From: a virus
Reading direction: 5' to 3' (one strand)
Virus record (IMG/VR): IMGVR_UViG_3300009093_000088
Span: 1-36,016 of that record
Length of the DNA: 36,016 bases
Shown here: positions 5,783 to 29,426 of the stretch, one piece after another
Layout of the letters: each line of letters opens with the position of its first letter
Position numbering within the stretch: position 1 is the stretch's first letter
Notes under the pieces: generated by a model
Databases searched by the model: none
Told to the model about the DNA's origin: nothing
What the model saw: only the letters and a program-made list of their open reading frames with translations
Made by a program: the position numbers and the translations under genes

Positions 5783-6301
5783 TTAAACTGCTAAAGTAGC
5801 GCGAAGGTTGATGACCCAAAGGTCATTTGTGATACGCGGGACTTCAGCGAATTTGTAGCCTACTGAGGCGTTAAGAGCCAATGGACCATCATATATAGGT
5901 GGTCTATAGATAAAGCTTGCGCTGTATCCATCTTGCTCTACGCATGCATAGGCTTCCATACCAACACAGAAGATGTTGTATACGGTGTTACCTAATGAAG
6001 ATGCATTAGCTACTTGTGAACCGATTGATGAAATAAGGAAACGAAGGTTTCCAACTGCACCCCATTCACTTCTCAACGCGTTCATTGGAGCTGGGTACTG
6101 GTTCTTTTGTGTGAATCCAGCAATGTTCTCCAAGTTTCCGGTTAAGTTAGTGCTGCAAAGTGCGAAGTACGCATCACGTACTGGCGCTGTACCGAACTTA
6201 TCTTCACCTTCGATGTTGTCCATGATCGTGTATGCGTTGTTGTTCAACAATGCACGCACTACAGTGTCAACATCTGAGCGAGTAATTTCAGTCGGGACGT
6301 C
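5783..6301 (-). CDS. Major capsid protein, exon 3 (N4-gp56 family)
   Basis: This is the C-terminal 172 residues of the major capsid protein. It begins DVPTEITRSDVDTVVRALL after the second intron and contains the family's typical RDAYFALCSTNL, EWGAVGNLRFLISS and C-terminal beta-rich part, which form the HK97-like capsid fold. Reading the genome without splicing gives an ORF that starts at an ATG at 6302-6304. That ATG is made only by the last three bases of the intron (ATG) and has no ribosome site. Joined to exons 1 and 2 the protein is 316 residues, normal for this family. Confidence 0.88.
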   Translation of the reverse strand, partial: DVPTEITRSDVDTVVRALLNNNAYTIMDNIEGEDKFGTAPVRDAYFALCSTNLTGNLENIAGFTQKNQYPAPMNALRSEWGAVGNLRFLISSIGSQVANASSLGNTVYNIFCVGMEAYACVEQDGYSASFIYRPPIYDGPLALNASVGYKFAEVPRITNDLWVINLRATLAV

Positions 6302-6676
6302 CATTCTGTTACTTTATGACCTATTGCTAGGCGGAGGCTTTCTCTACTTACCTCTCATGATCTTATCGACCATGCTCAGAGCACCGCATCTCTAATTCTG
6401 TTAATTATTTTCCTAACAAAACTAGAGTCTTCTCGCTTGCTACGTTCAGGCTGAATTTCACTTTGCAGTTTGGTCATGTGCGATTGCAGGATTACTTTCA
6501 ATTCTTCAGTTTGTCTTCTAACTTCTTCACAGCGACGATCATGACAACCTTCGCAACTGCATTCTTTATCATAACCACTACAAATTTCCATTCTTGCCCC
6601 TTGTTGTCGGTTAGCTAATTGCCACTTCGAGTTTCAAGTCTATCAGAGAAGATTTAACGACGGCAATGTCCAATCT
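6302..6676 (-). ncRNA. Group I intron 2 in the major capsid gene (375 nt)
   Basis: P1: exon bases GACGGT (6682-6677) pair with the internal guide GCCGTC (6664-6659), and the last exon U pairs with G, which fixes the 5' splice site after 6677. P7: GTAGCA (6443-6438) pairs with TGCTC (6383-6379) with one bulged U. The 5' strand follows CCTGAAC, a typical core R-segment context. P8 is the long stem between the P7 strands. Near the 3' end CCTA-GCAA-TAGG (6331-6320) is a GNRA-capped hairpin. The intron ends in G at 6302. Splicing joins VDG to DVP in frame. The subgroup cannot be decided by eye. Confidence 0.88.
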
Positions 6677-6871
6677 ACCGTCCACACCACCAACACAGTT
6701 AATGAAGGAAGCTGTCGCAGCCAACATATCGCGTGTTAGCTGATCTTCTGTTTGACGAAGTGACACGCCGAGACGTGCTGCACATTCGTTCAAAACAGGA
6801 TCTTGGTTTTGCAATGTAACTTGTTCATTCAATTGAACATATGTTCCGTAAAACGAAATCTTAGCATCAAT
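6677..6871 (-). CDS. Major capsid protein, exon 2 (N4-gp56 family)
   Basis: Exactly 65 codons with both boundaries between codons: IDAKISFYGTYVQLNEQ at the start and ASFINCVGGVDG at the end. The block VTLQNQDPVLNECAARLG followed by QTEDQLTRDMLAA is the conserved middle of N4-gp56-type capsid proteins (the long spine helix region). There is no ribosome site or proper start codon for it. Translated alone it would begin at an internal TTG and then run into intron sequence, so it makes sense only as an exon. Confidence 0.88.
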
Positions 6872-7329
6872 CGATTCTGTTACTTTTGTGACCTATTACT
6901 AGGCGGGGAACTTCTTCGAGATTCCCTCACGAGGTTTCCTCTCGTGTTCAGACTGTCGCATACCCTTTTTCAGTAATGGAGTCACTGAAAAAAAGTCCTT
7001 CTCACTCAGTCGTTCAGGCTGACATGCTCTATGTGCATTATTATTTAGGGCTATACGTAGAGACCCATGGGTTGAATATTGCTTTCCCGATTCGTATAAA
7101 TATTTCATTATCCGAGATTGTATTAATCGAACTGAAGTCAAATTCATTGGTTGTTTATTGCCTTCCATATCTAGAAAACAACAATTCTCTCCGCATGAGG
7201 TGGTATTATTATTATAAAACCTGCTAAAAATTCTATGCACATCAAACATTGCCTTGCCCCTTGTCACCGTTAACTTAATAGTGCGGCTTCCAAGTCTATC
7301 AGAGAAGATTTAACGTGGACATTGAGTTT
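6872..7329 (-). ncRNA. Group I intron 1 in the major capsid gene (458 nt)
   Basis: P1: exon bases GTGGAT (7335-7330) pair with the guide GTCCAC (7320-7315), giving a terminal U.G pair and a splice after 7330. P7: GACTG (7011-7007) pairs with CAGTC (6955-6951). The 5' strand sits in the context CCTGAACGACTGAG, close to the conserved R segment of group I cores. P8: TTTTTCAGT (6992-6984) pairs with ACTGAAAAA (6974-6966). CCTA-GTAA-TAGG (6903-6892) is a GNRA-capped hairpin, and the last base is G (6872). Splicing joins AVD to IDA in frame. It is longer than intron 2 mainly in its peripheral loops. Confidence 0.9.
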
Positions 7330-7566
7330 ATCCACTGCCGTTAGATTCTGCGCAGGGGGAGTGACACCACTATTTCCAAGTGGAACCATTGCTGTATTGA
7401 GCGCATTGTACCTACGCATACGTAAAGTTGTACCACCATTGCGTGGCATGTTCTTGCGCATCGCAGGGATCTTGTGGATCATGTTGGGCACTGGCACGGC
7501 CAGTAATTTGTAACTAAAACTTTGCTGGACTGGCGCCGGCAAAGTTGAAGTTGTAGTTATAGCCAT
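7330..7566 (-). CDS. Major capsid protein, exon 1 (N4-gp56 family)
   Basis: The 79 N-terminal residues of the capsid protein, MAITTTSTLPAPVQQSFSYK through PAQNLTAVD. FSYKLLAVPVPNMIHKIPAM and the Arg-rich RKNMPRNGGTTLRMRRYN are the usual N-arm of the N4-gp56 family. The start has a strong ribosome site (TTAGGAGCCAATT before ATG at 7566). Without splicing the frame reads 19 more codons into the intron and stops at 7270. It lies downstream of the scaffold gene in the usual head-gene order, separated from it by an HNH gene on the other strand. Confidence 0.88.
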
Positions 7567-7650
7567 AATTGGCTCCTAAGTTATAGGATATCATTAAGAT
7601 CTTTTGTGGATCATGTAATGTATGTTATACTTAAGTTTGACGAGAACTTT

Positions 7651-7738
7651 GTACGTCTGGGGTGGCGAGTCCCGTACGCCGACTCCGTTTTAACCTTTGG
7701 CCGAAGGCTTGGACGGAAAGTTTGGAGATGCGAGCTCC
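7651..7738 (+). ncRNA. Structured segment upstream of the HNH gene (three consecutive hairpins)
   Basis: Three compact stems follow one another: GTACG 7651-7655 with CGTAC 7673-7677; TCCG 7684-7687 with CGGA 7714-7717, enclosing CCTT/AAGG (7694-7697/7704-7707); and GGAG 7724-7727 with CTCC 7735-7738. The stretch is visibly richer in G and C than what surrounds it, and the reading frame through it is unlike the rest of the HNH protein. It could be a leader RNA of the HNH gene or, on the other strand, the region upstream of the capsid gene. No known RNA family is recognised. Confidence 0.35.
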
Positions 7739-7773
7739 GAGTACGCAGCAAAATAAATTTACCTGAGGGAATT

Positions 7774-8415
7774 GTGGAAACAAAACAATTTGGAAAATGG
7801 ACTGTCATAAAACAAGTGGAAACGGGAAAACCTGGAAAATGGTACGAATGCATATGCGATTGTGGGAACATACGCATAAAAGCCGGAACAGAATTAAGAG
7901 CTGGAAAAGGTAAACAATGTCGGGATTGCCAATATGACGAACTTTATAATCCAGCAAAGTTCATTGGAAAACGCTATGGCAAATGGACTATCGTAAAATT
8001 CTTAGGAATCCATAGGCGTCTTCACCAATATGAAACTCAGTGTGATTGCGGAACGAGCGGCAAACACTTAATTTCTGAATTGAGGGCTGGAAAGTCTAAG
8101 CAATGTACTACGTGTCATAATACGAAAAATGCTGAGAATCTTATAACTCATGGAATGCATGGATCACCAATATATAAAGTTTGGATATCCATGATTCAAA
8201 GATGCGAAAATCCCAATGCTCAATTCTACTATCGATATGGAGGAAGAGGGATAAAGGTTTGCGAAAGATGGCATTCATTTGAGAACTTCATAGCAGATAT
8301 GGGTGAAAGGCCTGAAAATATGACCATAGATCGTATAAATAACGATGGGGATTATGAACCATCAAATTGTCGATGGGTAAGCCATAAGGAAAACTGTAAT
8401 AATCGTACCAAATAA
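7774..8415 (+). CDS. Free-standing HNH/AP2-type homing endonuclease-like protein
   Basis: The protein has two tandem copies of a DNA-binding/zinc module. Each begins FGKWTVIK or YGKWTIVK and carries CDCG, then LRAGK-K-QC-x-x-C. A C-terminal HNH/AP2-like domain follows with IYKVWISMIQRCENPNA, YGGRGIKVCERW and IDRINNDGDYEPSNCRW. This is the usual layout of phage free-standing homing proteins, and it is related to the gene at 17055-17540, which has only one module. The frame is open back to a GTG at 7606, but I prefer GTG at 7774 (213 residues). It has GAGGG four bases upstream and starts just before the first module, as in the paralogue. It runs opposite to its neighbours and sits beside the intron-split capsid gene. 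Confidence 0.75.
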   Translation: METKQFGKWTVIKQVETGKPGKWYECICDCGNIRIKAGTELRAGKGKQCRDCQYDELYNPAKFIGKRYGKWTIVKFLGIHRRLHQYETQCDCGTSGKHLISELRAGKSKQCTTCHNTKNAENLITHGMHGSPIYKVWISMIQRCENPNAQFYYRYGGRGIKVCERWHSFENFIADMGERPENMTIDRINNDGDYEPSNCRWVSHKENCNNRTK

Positions 8416-8496: not shown

Positions 8497-9300
8497 TTAT
8501 CTATTTTTCATAGCGTCGAACATCTCTTTGCGTAACTGTTTGGCAAGCTCATCAGTCATACCATTGGCAAATGCGTTGGCATGAGACAATGGAGTATCAC
8601 CTTTTTGAGGAGAGATACTGGTAAGAGGACGAGGCTTGGCAGCGTTAGTAGCAGCAATCTTCTTATCCTGTGAATAGTCTTCTGCGTAGATACCAAGATT
8701 CTTTATGACGGTATATGCAGTAACTGCTTGGCTGTAGAGATCGTTAGATGTGCCGATAGTCTTGGCGATGTCAGGATACATTTCCGACAGCGATGCAATG
8801 TTCGACGGAGACACGACTTTATCAAAATCTGGGTACTTACTGCGTAGACGGGCTTCTGCTTGCATCTGGTTCAATTGTTGTTGCATCTGAACAAAATGCT
8901 TACCCTCTACCAGATCGTCGGGTGCAAGTGAGGGTGAAGATTCGGATTGGCGGTCTAACTTTTCTTGGTAGGCTTTGAGTTGCCTTGCGAGCGCTTCGCG
9001 TTCAGCTTCTGCTTTGCGCGCGCGGTCTCGTAAGAGAGCAAGATTTTCTTCTTTTGAATACGTACCTGGTTTATTGTTGGGAACAGGTTGCGCTTGATTC
9101 TCTTGGGGAGATTCTTGCACAGATACTTCAGCCTCAGCAGAGATATCCGTAGGTGCTTCCTCAGACGCTTCAGCTTGTTGTTCAACTGGCACTTCAGGTG
9201 TAGGAACTGGATCATCCGTTACTCCGTATTTTTCTCGGGCTATCTTATTCATAGCATTTATCTGTTCTTGTGAGGCAATCGGCAATGAGTCTATAGACAT
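8497..9300 (-). CDS. Capsid scaffolding protein
   Basis: A 267-residue protein just upstream of the capsid gene in transcription order. It is typical of scaffolds: an acidic, Pro/Glu-rich disordered N-terminus (residues 28-75), charged helices likely to form coiled coil at about 83-118 and 134-153, and a basic C-terminal helix (ELAKQLRKEMFDAMKNR) of the kind that binds the inner face of capsid subunits. No sequence family is certain from reading alone. The role rests on composition, length and position. The start is ATG at 9300 with AGGAG upstream. Confidence 0.7.
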   Translation of the reverse strand: MSIDSLPIASQEQINAMNKIAREKYGVTDDPVPTPEVPVEQQAEASEEAPTDISAEAEVSVQESPQENQAQPVPNNKPGTYSKEENLALLRDRARKAEAEREALARQLKAYQEKLDRQSESSPSLAPDDLVEGKHFVQMQQQLNQMQAEARLRSKYPDFDKVVSPSNIASLSEMYPDIAKTIGTSNDLYSQAVTAYTVIKNLGIYAEDYSQDKKIAATNAAKPRPLTSISPQKGDTPLSHANAFANGMTDELAKQLRKEMFDAMKNR

Positions 9301-17054: not shown

Positions 17055-17540
17055 TCATAATGGTCCTTCTTTTTTGTTCTTTAGAGGCAATCCCCATCGA
17101 CAATTGTCTTTTGAATAAGACTTCTTTATATCGAGACGACAAAGCGTCTTTCCTTCGGGCCTATTACCCATATCCTCGTAGAATTTCTTGAACTTTTTCC
17201 AGCTATCACACACGGTTATTCCGACTCCACCGTAAAGATGCCAAGAAGGGTTAGCGGGATTCCTGCAGCGACTGAGCATATTCGACCACGAATTGTATAC
17301 ACGGTTATAGCACTTTCCATGAACGAATTTCTTTTTACCTTTCTCTTTATGGCCACATTCGACACAGCGCATAGATTTTCCAGATCTTAATGCGTGACCC
17401 TCTACGGTAGACTCTTTTCCACAAGAACACCTACACTTAAAGTATGGAGATTTGGTAGCGTCAGAATGGCTGTAACTCAGAACAGTCCACTGACCGAATT
17501 TCTTGTGTGGCATTTCGATTTTTGATTTATAGCGGATCAT
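17055..17540 (-). CDS. HNH/AP2-type homing endonuclease-like protein next to terminase
   Basis: A 161-residue protein with one DNA-binding/zinc module (KKFGQWTVLSYSH; CRCSCGKES; LRSGKSMRCVECGH). A C-terminal domain follows (YNRVYNSWSNMLSRCRNPAN; LYGGVGITVCDSWKKF; LCRLDIKKSYSKDNCRW). It is related to the two-module protein at 7774-8415. The last motif is more diverged here (LDIKKSY in place of DRINNDG), so cleavage activity is doubtful. It overlaps the stop of the upstream gene (ATGA) and splits a putative small terminase from TerL, a common landing place for homing genes. Confidence 0.75.
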   Translation of the reverse strand: MIRYKSKIEMPHKKFGQWTVLSYSHSDATKSPYFKCRCSCGKESTVEGHALRSGKSMRCVECGHKEKGKKKFVHGKCYNRVYNSWSNMLSRCRNPANPSWHLYGGVGITVCDSWKKFKKFYEDMGNRPEGKTLCRLDIKKSYSKDNCRWGLPLKNKKEGPL

Positions 17541-28808: not shown

Positions 28809-29426
28809 CTATACTGTTTTCCAAGTTTTGCCGTACTTTATGCTCGCTATGGTGTTTTTGTTAACCTTAAAGTCTGTTGCAATTCTATTCATATTGACTC
28901 CCATTTTTAATAGATTTTTTATTTCGATAACCTTTTCATTGGTAAGCACCGAAGCAGGATTACTTTCACCAAGCAAAACACCAGTTCTTCCTTTGAATGC
29001 CATATCACGCATGTTATCGGTTTGGTCACCTAGAAACAAATGTTTTGGGTTGGAACAATTTCGGGTATCGCATTTATGCAAAACGAACATACCATTAGGT
29101 ATTTCTCCATTATGTATGATCCAGCTTGCTCTATGCGCTTTCATTATTTTCCCTCTATGATGAAAATTCGCATAACCTTGCATAATACAACCATTCCAGC
29201 CCCAACACCCTTCTTCATTTTTTATCGCAAACTTCTCATAATGCTCTTTAAGCCATAACAGTTTTTGTTCATTTGTTTCCTCTTTCAGATACTCAAAATG
29301 CTTTTTAAGTTGGCCTTTTCTGAGCAACTTACGGGTGCATTCTCTAGAGCAAAACCTCCCCTTTTGTTTCTTTCTCTTAACTTCAAATGACTTTTGGCAA
29401 GCTTCACATATTCTTTCTGGTTCCAT
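28809..29426 (-). CDS. HNH homing endonuclease with zinc finger and helix-turn-helix
   Basis: A 205-residue protein. Residues 1-35 hold a zinc finger (ICEACQKSF, then FCSRECTRKL). Residues 60-140 hold the HNH domain of the HNH_3 type (CWGWNGCIMQGYANFH; KAHRASWIIHNGEIPNG; VLHKCDTRNCSNPKHLFLGD) with its H-x(n)-N-x-x-H pattern intact. The C-terminus has a helix-turn-helix DNA-reader (VLTNEKVIEIKNLLKMGVNM; NKNTIASIKYGK). All key residues look present, so it is probably active. It lies within the fibre cluster. A hairpin covers its ribosome site. Confidence 0.85.
   Translation of the reverse strand: MEPERICEACQKSFEVKRKKQKGRFCSRECTRKLLRKGQLKKHFEYLKEETNEQKLLWLKEHYEKFAIKNEEGCWGWNGCIMQGYANFHHRGKIMKAHRASWIIHNGEIPNGMFVLHKCDTRNCSNPKHLFLGDQTDNMRDMAFKGRTGVLLGESNPASVLTNEKVIEIKNLLKMGVNMNRIATDFKVNKNTIASIKYGKTWKTV

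Follow-up and report, generated by a model that had tools for sequence, protein, structure and literature searches.

A phage major capsid gene with two predicted group I introns, and a candidate guide-only intron in its relatives

The major capsid gene of the virus recorded in IMG/VR as IMGVR_UViG_3300009093_000088, a record of 36,016 bases analysed here at full length (the window), very probably holds two independently inserted group I introns of one family. Many relatives of this gene carry a further, short insert at codon 88|89, which is likely to be a natural group I intron reduced to its guide sequence; its pairing pattern and its neighbours suggest that it would be spliced by the single core of the next intron downstream, with a helix that we call H setting the register.

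Exons and introns of the window gene all lie on the minus strand, exon 1 (7566-7330) encoding codons 1-79, exon 2 (6871-6677) codons 80-144 and exon 3 (6301-5783) codons 145-316 and the stop. An earlier description of this DNA made without database searches (the sequence-only reading) had reported three capsid fragments on one strand in different frames, with predicted cuts between codons and a gap-free product of 316 residues; its coordinates are exact to the base, its junctions are those found here and intronless homologues agree with the layout. Joining the three exons yields a 316-amino-acid major head protein with no residue gained or lost. This product gave a match with PHROG 1357 (major head protein; E=3.6e-30) and is co-linear with homologues encoded by a single open reading frame (ORF), that of L008 being 93.7% identical without a gap. 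P22-type portal and terminase genes share the strand of the capsid gene in the window.

The differing frames of the three ORFs, together with the fact that splicing is read from sequence, might suggest that they are unspliced remnants of a capsid gene that has decayed or frameshifted, or that they stem from assembly errors. We consider this extremely unlikely, because the junctions are precise to the codon with no residue missing, the gene is essential and evidently under constraint, and identical capsid DNA was recovered from two other metagenomes (100% over 4,894 nt in L003 and 100% over 5,012 nt in L001). The same conclusion is favoured by some 100 sister introns, which share a covarying core and have boundaries marked by P1 and a terminal G.

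Intron 1 (7329-6872, 458 nt) is inserted at codon 79|80 and intron 2 (6676-6302, 375 nt) at codon 144|145. At the first site the last six bases of exon 1, GTGGAT (7335-7330), pair with the guide GTCCAC (7315-7320) to form a P1 ending in U.G, and CAAT directly 5' of the guide pairs with ATTG of the 3' exon (P10). At the second site GACGGT (6682-6677) pairs with the guide GCCGTC (6659-6664), again with a terminal U.G. The P3 strands are TCTTCTC (7302-7308) and GAGAAGG (7003-6997) in intron 1 and TCTTCTC (6646-6652) and GAGAAGA (6434-6428) in intron 2, and those of P7 are GACTG (7007-7011) and CAGTC (6955-6951) in intron 1 and GTAGCA (6438-6443) and TGCTC (6383-6379) in intron 2. P8 comprises 9 bp in intron 1 (TTTTTCAGT/ACTGAAAAA, 6966-6992) and 12 bp in intron 2 (CTAGTTTTGTTA/TAACAGAATTAG, 6392-6425). 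The GNRA-capped hairpins near the 3' ends, assigned to P9.2, are CCTA-GTAA-TAGG (6892-6903) and CCTA-GCAA-TAGG (6320-6331), and the introns end in G at 6872 and 6302, respectively. All of these elements apart from P3 and P10 had been named in the sequence-only reading, and each was recovered. P3 and P7 of both introns and P9.2 of intron 1 are assigned from sequence and covariation, P8 of intron 1 from sequence and P8 covariation in relatives, and P8 and P9.2 of intron 2 from sequence.

A search with the Rfam group I covariance model RF00028, which had been proposed as a check, did not match the window introns at E<=10. Comparative alignment was therefore used instead. Two half-profiles, one covering the guide up to P6 and the other P6 up to the 3' end, were trained on 22 compact relatives with the window excluded. 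They matched intron 1 at 7320-7253 and 7021-6875 with E-values of 1.6e-14 and 2.2e-23, intron 2 with E-values of 7e-12 and 4.8e-11, and nearly every full intron of the relatives, in most of which an ORF lies between the two halves, in the P6 loop. In the window they found the two capsid introns only, and among 196 sequences searched just two further introns lay clearly outside capsid genes (L098 and L120). A P1 of at least 5 bp with its U.G was present in 62 of 65 full introns of relatives, compared with 2% when exons were paired with introns from other sites.

Covariation was scored for hand-named helices on 76 distinct cores and compared with slid controls. Paired cells made up 100% for P1, 97% for P3, 98% for P4, 98% for P6, 95% for P8, 93% for P9, 85% for P9.1 and 97% for P9.2. 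Double changes occurred at all 7 bp of P3, P4 and P6 also showed compensatory changes, and covariation was well above the slid controls in all helices except P5. By this evidence the family core is group I, with a P3/P7 pseudoknot. Neither P2 nor P7.1/7.2 is present in the family, whose ORF lies in the P6 loop and whose 3' end follows the pattern AGTAACAGAnnG. Only a few nucleotides separate the 5' strand of P7 from the 3' strand of P3, and since P7.1/7.2 are missing the family does not belong to subgroup IA. Empty sites in intronless homologues, covariation in P3, P6, P7, P8 and P9 and the roughly 100 related introns together bear out the proposal that two group I introns interrupt the capsid gene; comparative evidence makes this reading of the two gaps near certain, and from it we infer splicing.

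Several observations weigh against this reading. Even at relaxed thresholds RF00028 gave no match at E<=10 in the window, the surrounding region, ten loci or the whole record. P5 is poorly supported in the alignment (49% of cells paired), P7 reaches 80%, a figure affected by a bulge that misaligns a third of the rows, and P10 of intron 2 amounts to two pairs only. Guanosine-initiated splicing of the window introns is itself predicted from sequence. RF00028 does find four introns in a staphylococcal phage; it also misses the intron of Roseobacter phage CRP-118, whose core is ~79% identical to the window family, and the family is divergent from that model.

In the proposed course of events, the window transcript would fold, guanosine would attack after 7330 and after 6677, and the exons would join at 7330^6871 and 6677^6301 to encode the full-length coat protein. 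Proteins assist many phage introns in vivo or are indispensable to them, and the window introns might be group I by ancestry while depending on a maturase, a splicing factor of host or phage, or a trans-acting partner. The small cores of the family (195-260 nt), which lack P2 and have a weak P5, would fit such a dependence, but the core helices are all kept with compensatory change, and we regard it as unlikely.

To place the window gene among its relatives, viral contigs were scanned with exon 3 and the best 80 of the 381 relatives found were kept. Spliced protein-to-DNA alignment, with boundaries set by the exon-final T and the intron-final G, gave 64 distinct complete capsid genes. Counting the short inserts at codon 88, 23 of these genes have no insertion, 14 have one, 14 two, nine three, three four and one five; the 23 intronless genes show the empty sites of the window introns. 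The insertions occupy 19 distinct sites, given as codon.phase: 8.2, 12.0, 12.2, 27.0, 31.0, 51.0, 52.1, 55.1, 70.0, 79.0, 88.0, 96.2, 98.2, 104.0, 104.2, 116.2, 118.0, 124.0 and 144.0, of which the window holds 79.0 and 144.0. Other loci show signs of additional insertions within the gene's 3' half. In calling a capsid gene with two introns unusual, the sequence-only reading is right in general, but within this phage group two are ordinary; more surprising are the coreless inserts of relatives, which lie outside the window.

The insert at codon 88|89, here called the mini, measures 28-41 nt in many relatives and ~53 nt in L187; the window itself has none. Examples are found in L009 (3024-3052), L084, L029, L188 and some 60 other IMG/VR loci. 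A few nucleotides inside the insert lies the guide GGU-GCCGUA, of which GCCGUA pairs with the exon sequence UACGGU to form P1a, with U.G at the cut. The three bases before GCCGUA form P10 with the three that open the 3' exon, and they do so with perfect Watson-Crick complementarity in 53 of 53 cases, compared with a mean of 27.5 and a maximum of 35 in shuffles (GGT/ACC in 37, TGT/ACA in 6, AGT/ACT in 6 and CGT/ACG in 4). P1a covaries as well, TACGGT/GCCGTA being replaced by TATGGT/GCCATA in L188 and L191. All 54 minis tested end in G, 53 contain an in-frame stop, and their lengths include all three residues modulo 3. At 28-41 nt the mini is too short for a P3-P9 core of its own, and we therefore class it as working like a group I intron rather than as a complete one.

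The features of the mini can also be compared with those of a translational bypass (hop) element like that of T4 gene 60. The short, non-triplet length, the in-frame stop soon after a glycine codon and the hairpin beside the take-off site are all reminiscent of such an element. The take-off codon would be GGU, yet none of the listed minis has GGN as the triplet before the resume point (the ends are, for example, AAG, ATG, TTG and TAG), and a bypass leaves unexplained the covarying P1 and P10 across the junction, the invariant terminal G and the dependence on a downstream ribozyme. We consider a bypass element very unlikely.

That dependence appears when minis and core-bearing introns are searched for separately. 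An independent search with the mini pattern yielded 97 contigs with 62 distinct minis in capsid genes, and every capsid mini with enough contig has a core-bearing intron 26-86 nt downstream, at site 96.2, 104.2 or 116.2, or at 104.0 in L099. Conversely, when the core of the downstream intron served as the query, with no regard to the mini, 51 distinct introns were obtained (nine classified by eye), of which 47 are accompanied by a mini and four are not (L185, L186, L190 and L192). Because the mini occurs only with the large intron while the large intron also occurs alone, it is the mini that depends on the large intron. On the exon-3 tree the combination of mini and 96.2 intron requires 12 changes, at least six of them forced by supported branches, and in the sister pairs L052/L063 and L057/L078 the downstream sites differ and each has its matching mini.

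Helix H would tie the two introns together. In most cases 9-12 bp can be formed between the mini's 3' half and the exon just upstream of the P1 strand of the next intron, and the exon strand of H stops 8 nt short of the downstream 5' site whether the exon between is 26, 50 or 86 nt long. The energy of H was lower for true pairs than for locus-swapped pairs at 96.2 (-9.5 vs -4.1 kcal/mol) and at 104.2 (-14.3 vs -9.1 kcal/mol); at 116.2, with three distinct exon segments only, the contrast is weak. In a fixed register 91.4% of cells are paired in the 96.2 set, where shuffles reach 79.6% at most, and one base pair of H occurs as five pair types. When 12 compact units were folded with RNAfold, P1a, H and P1b (the P1 of the downstream intron) formed together with probabilities near 1 in most, H beginning 3 nt after the guide of the mini; exceptions were L126, in which P1a fails, and L123 and L126, in which P1b has a low probability.

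These pairings suggest an arrangement in which P1a, the 3-nt joint, H stacked on P1b, J1/3 and P3 would form one junction, with the H/P1b stack taking the place held by P2 in other group I introns. The single core would begin with P1a and cut out the mini; H would disappear with it, and the core would then take P1b and excise its own intron. Since H would be gone once the mini is removed, it may also enforce the order in which the mini leaves first. Earlier departure of the large intron would remove the core and break the frame. A direct join between the codon-88 exon and the last exon breaks the frame for each of the 26-, 50- and 86-nt exons, and skipping of these exons was set aside, as it would in addition drop residues kept in all intronless homologues. 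A twintron was likewise rejected, the mini being flanked on both sides by capsid exon and lying 26-86 nt before the next intron.

The mini might instead be removed in trans by excised copies of this intron or of others in the cell. Engineered group I cores do excise segments in trans (PMC6155759, PMC4094466), but no mini was seen unless a core lay 26-86 nt downstream of it, and H fits the exon beside the P1 of the next intron with a spacing fixed for each site. Removal in trans thus seems quite unlikely, and splicing in cis by the adjacent core is preferred. Some points count against the latter as well. Catalysis by the neighbour's core is deduced from association and pairing alone, and no P9.0-like contact was identified for the 3' end of the mini. 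For several of the 62 minis the contig ends so close by that the downstream intron is only partly seen, and the association counts are drawn from related phages, though the tree shows repeated gain or loss.

At other codons of the capsid gene, spliced alignment (gaps of at least 18 nt) gave no mini with P1 boundaries; this search was confined to the capsid gene. Matches to the mini pattern outside capsid genes (for example in L085 and L088) are probably due to chance, and the one in L162 resembles an ordinary intron belonging to a different gene.

Introns in capsid genes are already known. The Cluster J mycobacteriophage LittleE has a group I intron in its capsid gene whose splicing was demonstrated by reverse transcription PCR and protein sequence (PMC3706429), and that paper cites a capsid intron in the lactococcal phage Tuc2009. 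Both resemble the present case in that the gene encodes the major capsid protein, exon 1 ends in U, the intron ends in G and a homing endonuclease ORF lies within it. They differ in having one intron per gene, compared with two in the window and up to five in relatives, with 19 sites and coreless minis, and in LittleE splicing was shown experimentally whereas the introns described here are known from sequence. Twort-like staphylococcal phages such as SapYZU04 (OP432864) likewise have tandem group I introns beside a virion gene, and a short P7-P9 stretch is 88.6% identical over 35 nt. The SapYZU04 record shows four RF00028 matches within ~1.15 kb (359-1507) beside a capsid-annotated ORF, which are not annotated there. 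The four matches are full-length, no guide-only intron was seen among them, and gene and intron subgroup are different.

Closer relatives of the core occur in CRP-118 and MW202674, which share ~79-80% DNA identity over 100-118 nt of core and differ in gene and host. The introns (~1482-1881 in CRP-118, ~1495-1711 in L210) are unannotated and each host gene is given as two coding sequences; introns of the window family probably split a ribonucleotide reductase gene in CRP-118 and a P22-like coat gene in MW202674. The nearest parallel to the mini is found among engineered trans excision-splicing ribozymes and spliceozymes, in which a group I core cuts out a short segment (PMC6155759, PMC4094466). 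The P1 and P10 contacts and the joining of the flanks are those of the reaction proposed for the mini, but the engineered ribozymes are designed and act in trans, whereas the mini has its guide inside the excised segment and its core in the next intron, to which H links it. A literature search in which many subscription papers were beyond reach turned up coreless group I introns that had been designed, but no natural ones. The arrangement around the window case, with its coreless minis, therefore appears new, its novelty not being proven by a coverage that is incomplete.

By itself the window adds a well-supported group I intron family that is invisible to Rfam and a capsid gene with two introns, and the capsid gene of its relatives offers a natural series of intron gain and loss, from none to five per gene. 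If the proposed splicing of the mini is correct, introns without a catalyst would borrow the core of the next intron, and a single ribozyme that serves two introns would be nature's equivalent of engineered trans excision-splicing. Spliceosomal introns are proposed to derive from group II introns by a step in which catalysis was lost and an external core relied upon. The mini would, if so spliced, offer a parallel made of RNA alone to the passage from introns that splice themselves to introns that rely on a separate catalyst, and the group I case is compact enough (~250 nt in all) for such a step to be directly testable in the tube. The unit of L084, for example, consists of a 29-nt mini, a 26-nt exon and a 195-nt intron.

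The capsid gene is probably a hot spot in which these introns are mobile residents, to judge by its 19 insertion sites among 64 distinct genes and by the LAGLIDADG-like homing-endonuclease ORFs that many of the introns hold. In larger sister introns these ORFs, often antisense, have LAGLIDADG-like motifs (LAGIIDGEGS) that were read from the translations. Over 3.9 kb L002 and the window are 99.8% identical, and L002 has in addition a third intron (726 nt) at codon 12.2, which contains a LAGLIDADG-like ORF. An antisense HNH gene (7606-8415, plus strand; phrog_374, E=3.2e-65) lies in the window between the capsid gene and the gene at 8497-9300. It is missing beside the capsid gene in L002, as expected if homing replaced the flank. 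In L004 and L033 the core-bearing half of the intron at 104.0 begins ~1 kb in and is preceded by a two-motif LAGLIDADG-like ORF, which seems to lie in the P1 loop rather than in P6.

Both window introns contain an ORF on the minus strand. That of intron 1 (6899-7267, 122 aa) lies in the P6 loop between the half-profile matches and extends through P7-P9, and that of intron 2 (6376-6591, 71 aa), also in the P6 loop, stops just past P7. Neither had a match in Pfam and PHROG searches. The peptide QPER, which is common to both, was rejected as a sign of homology because it is the conserved core RNA CAGCCTGAACG read as protein.

Among 84,980 species genomes scanned, two relatives of exon 3 were confirmed, both in Chlamydiota bins: L081, a metagenome-assembled genome (MAG) of Parachlamydiaceae with an intron at 144.0, and L082, a MAG of Simkaniaceae. 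Capsid relatives were found in eight of 234 Chlamydiota genomes, and the three contigs checked are 16-40 kb long. Chlamydiota bins with such relatives on contigs of phage size are L081, L082, G037, G092, G124, G144, G165 and G217. These matches hint that these tailed phages infect environmental chlamydiae, binned phage contigs being weak evidence of a host. Elsewhere in the window there are two more free-standing HNH genes (17055-17540 and 28809-29426, both on the minus strand), one of which lies directly upstream of the terminase large subunit gene.
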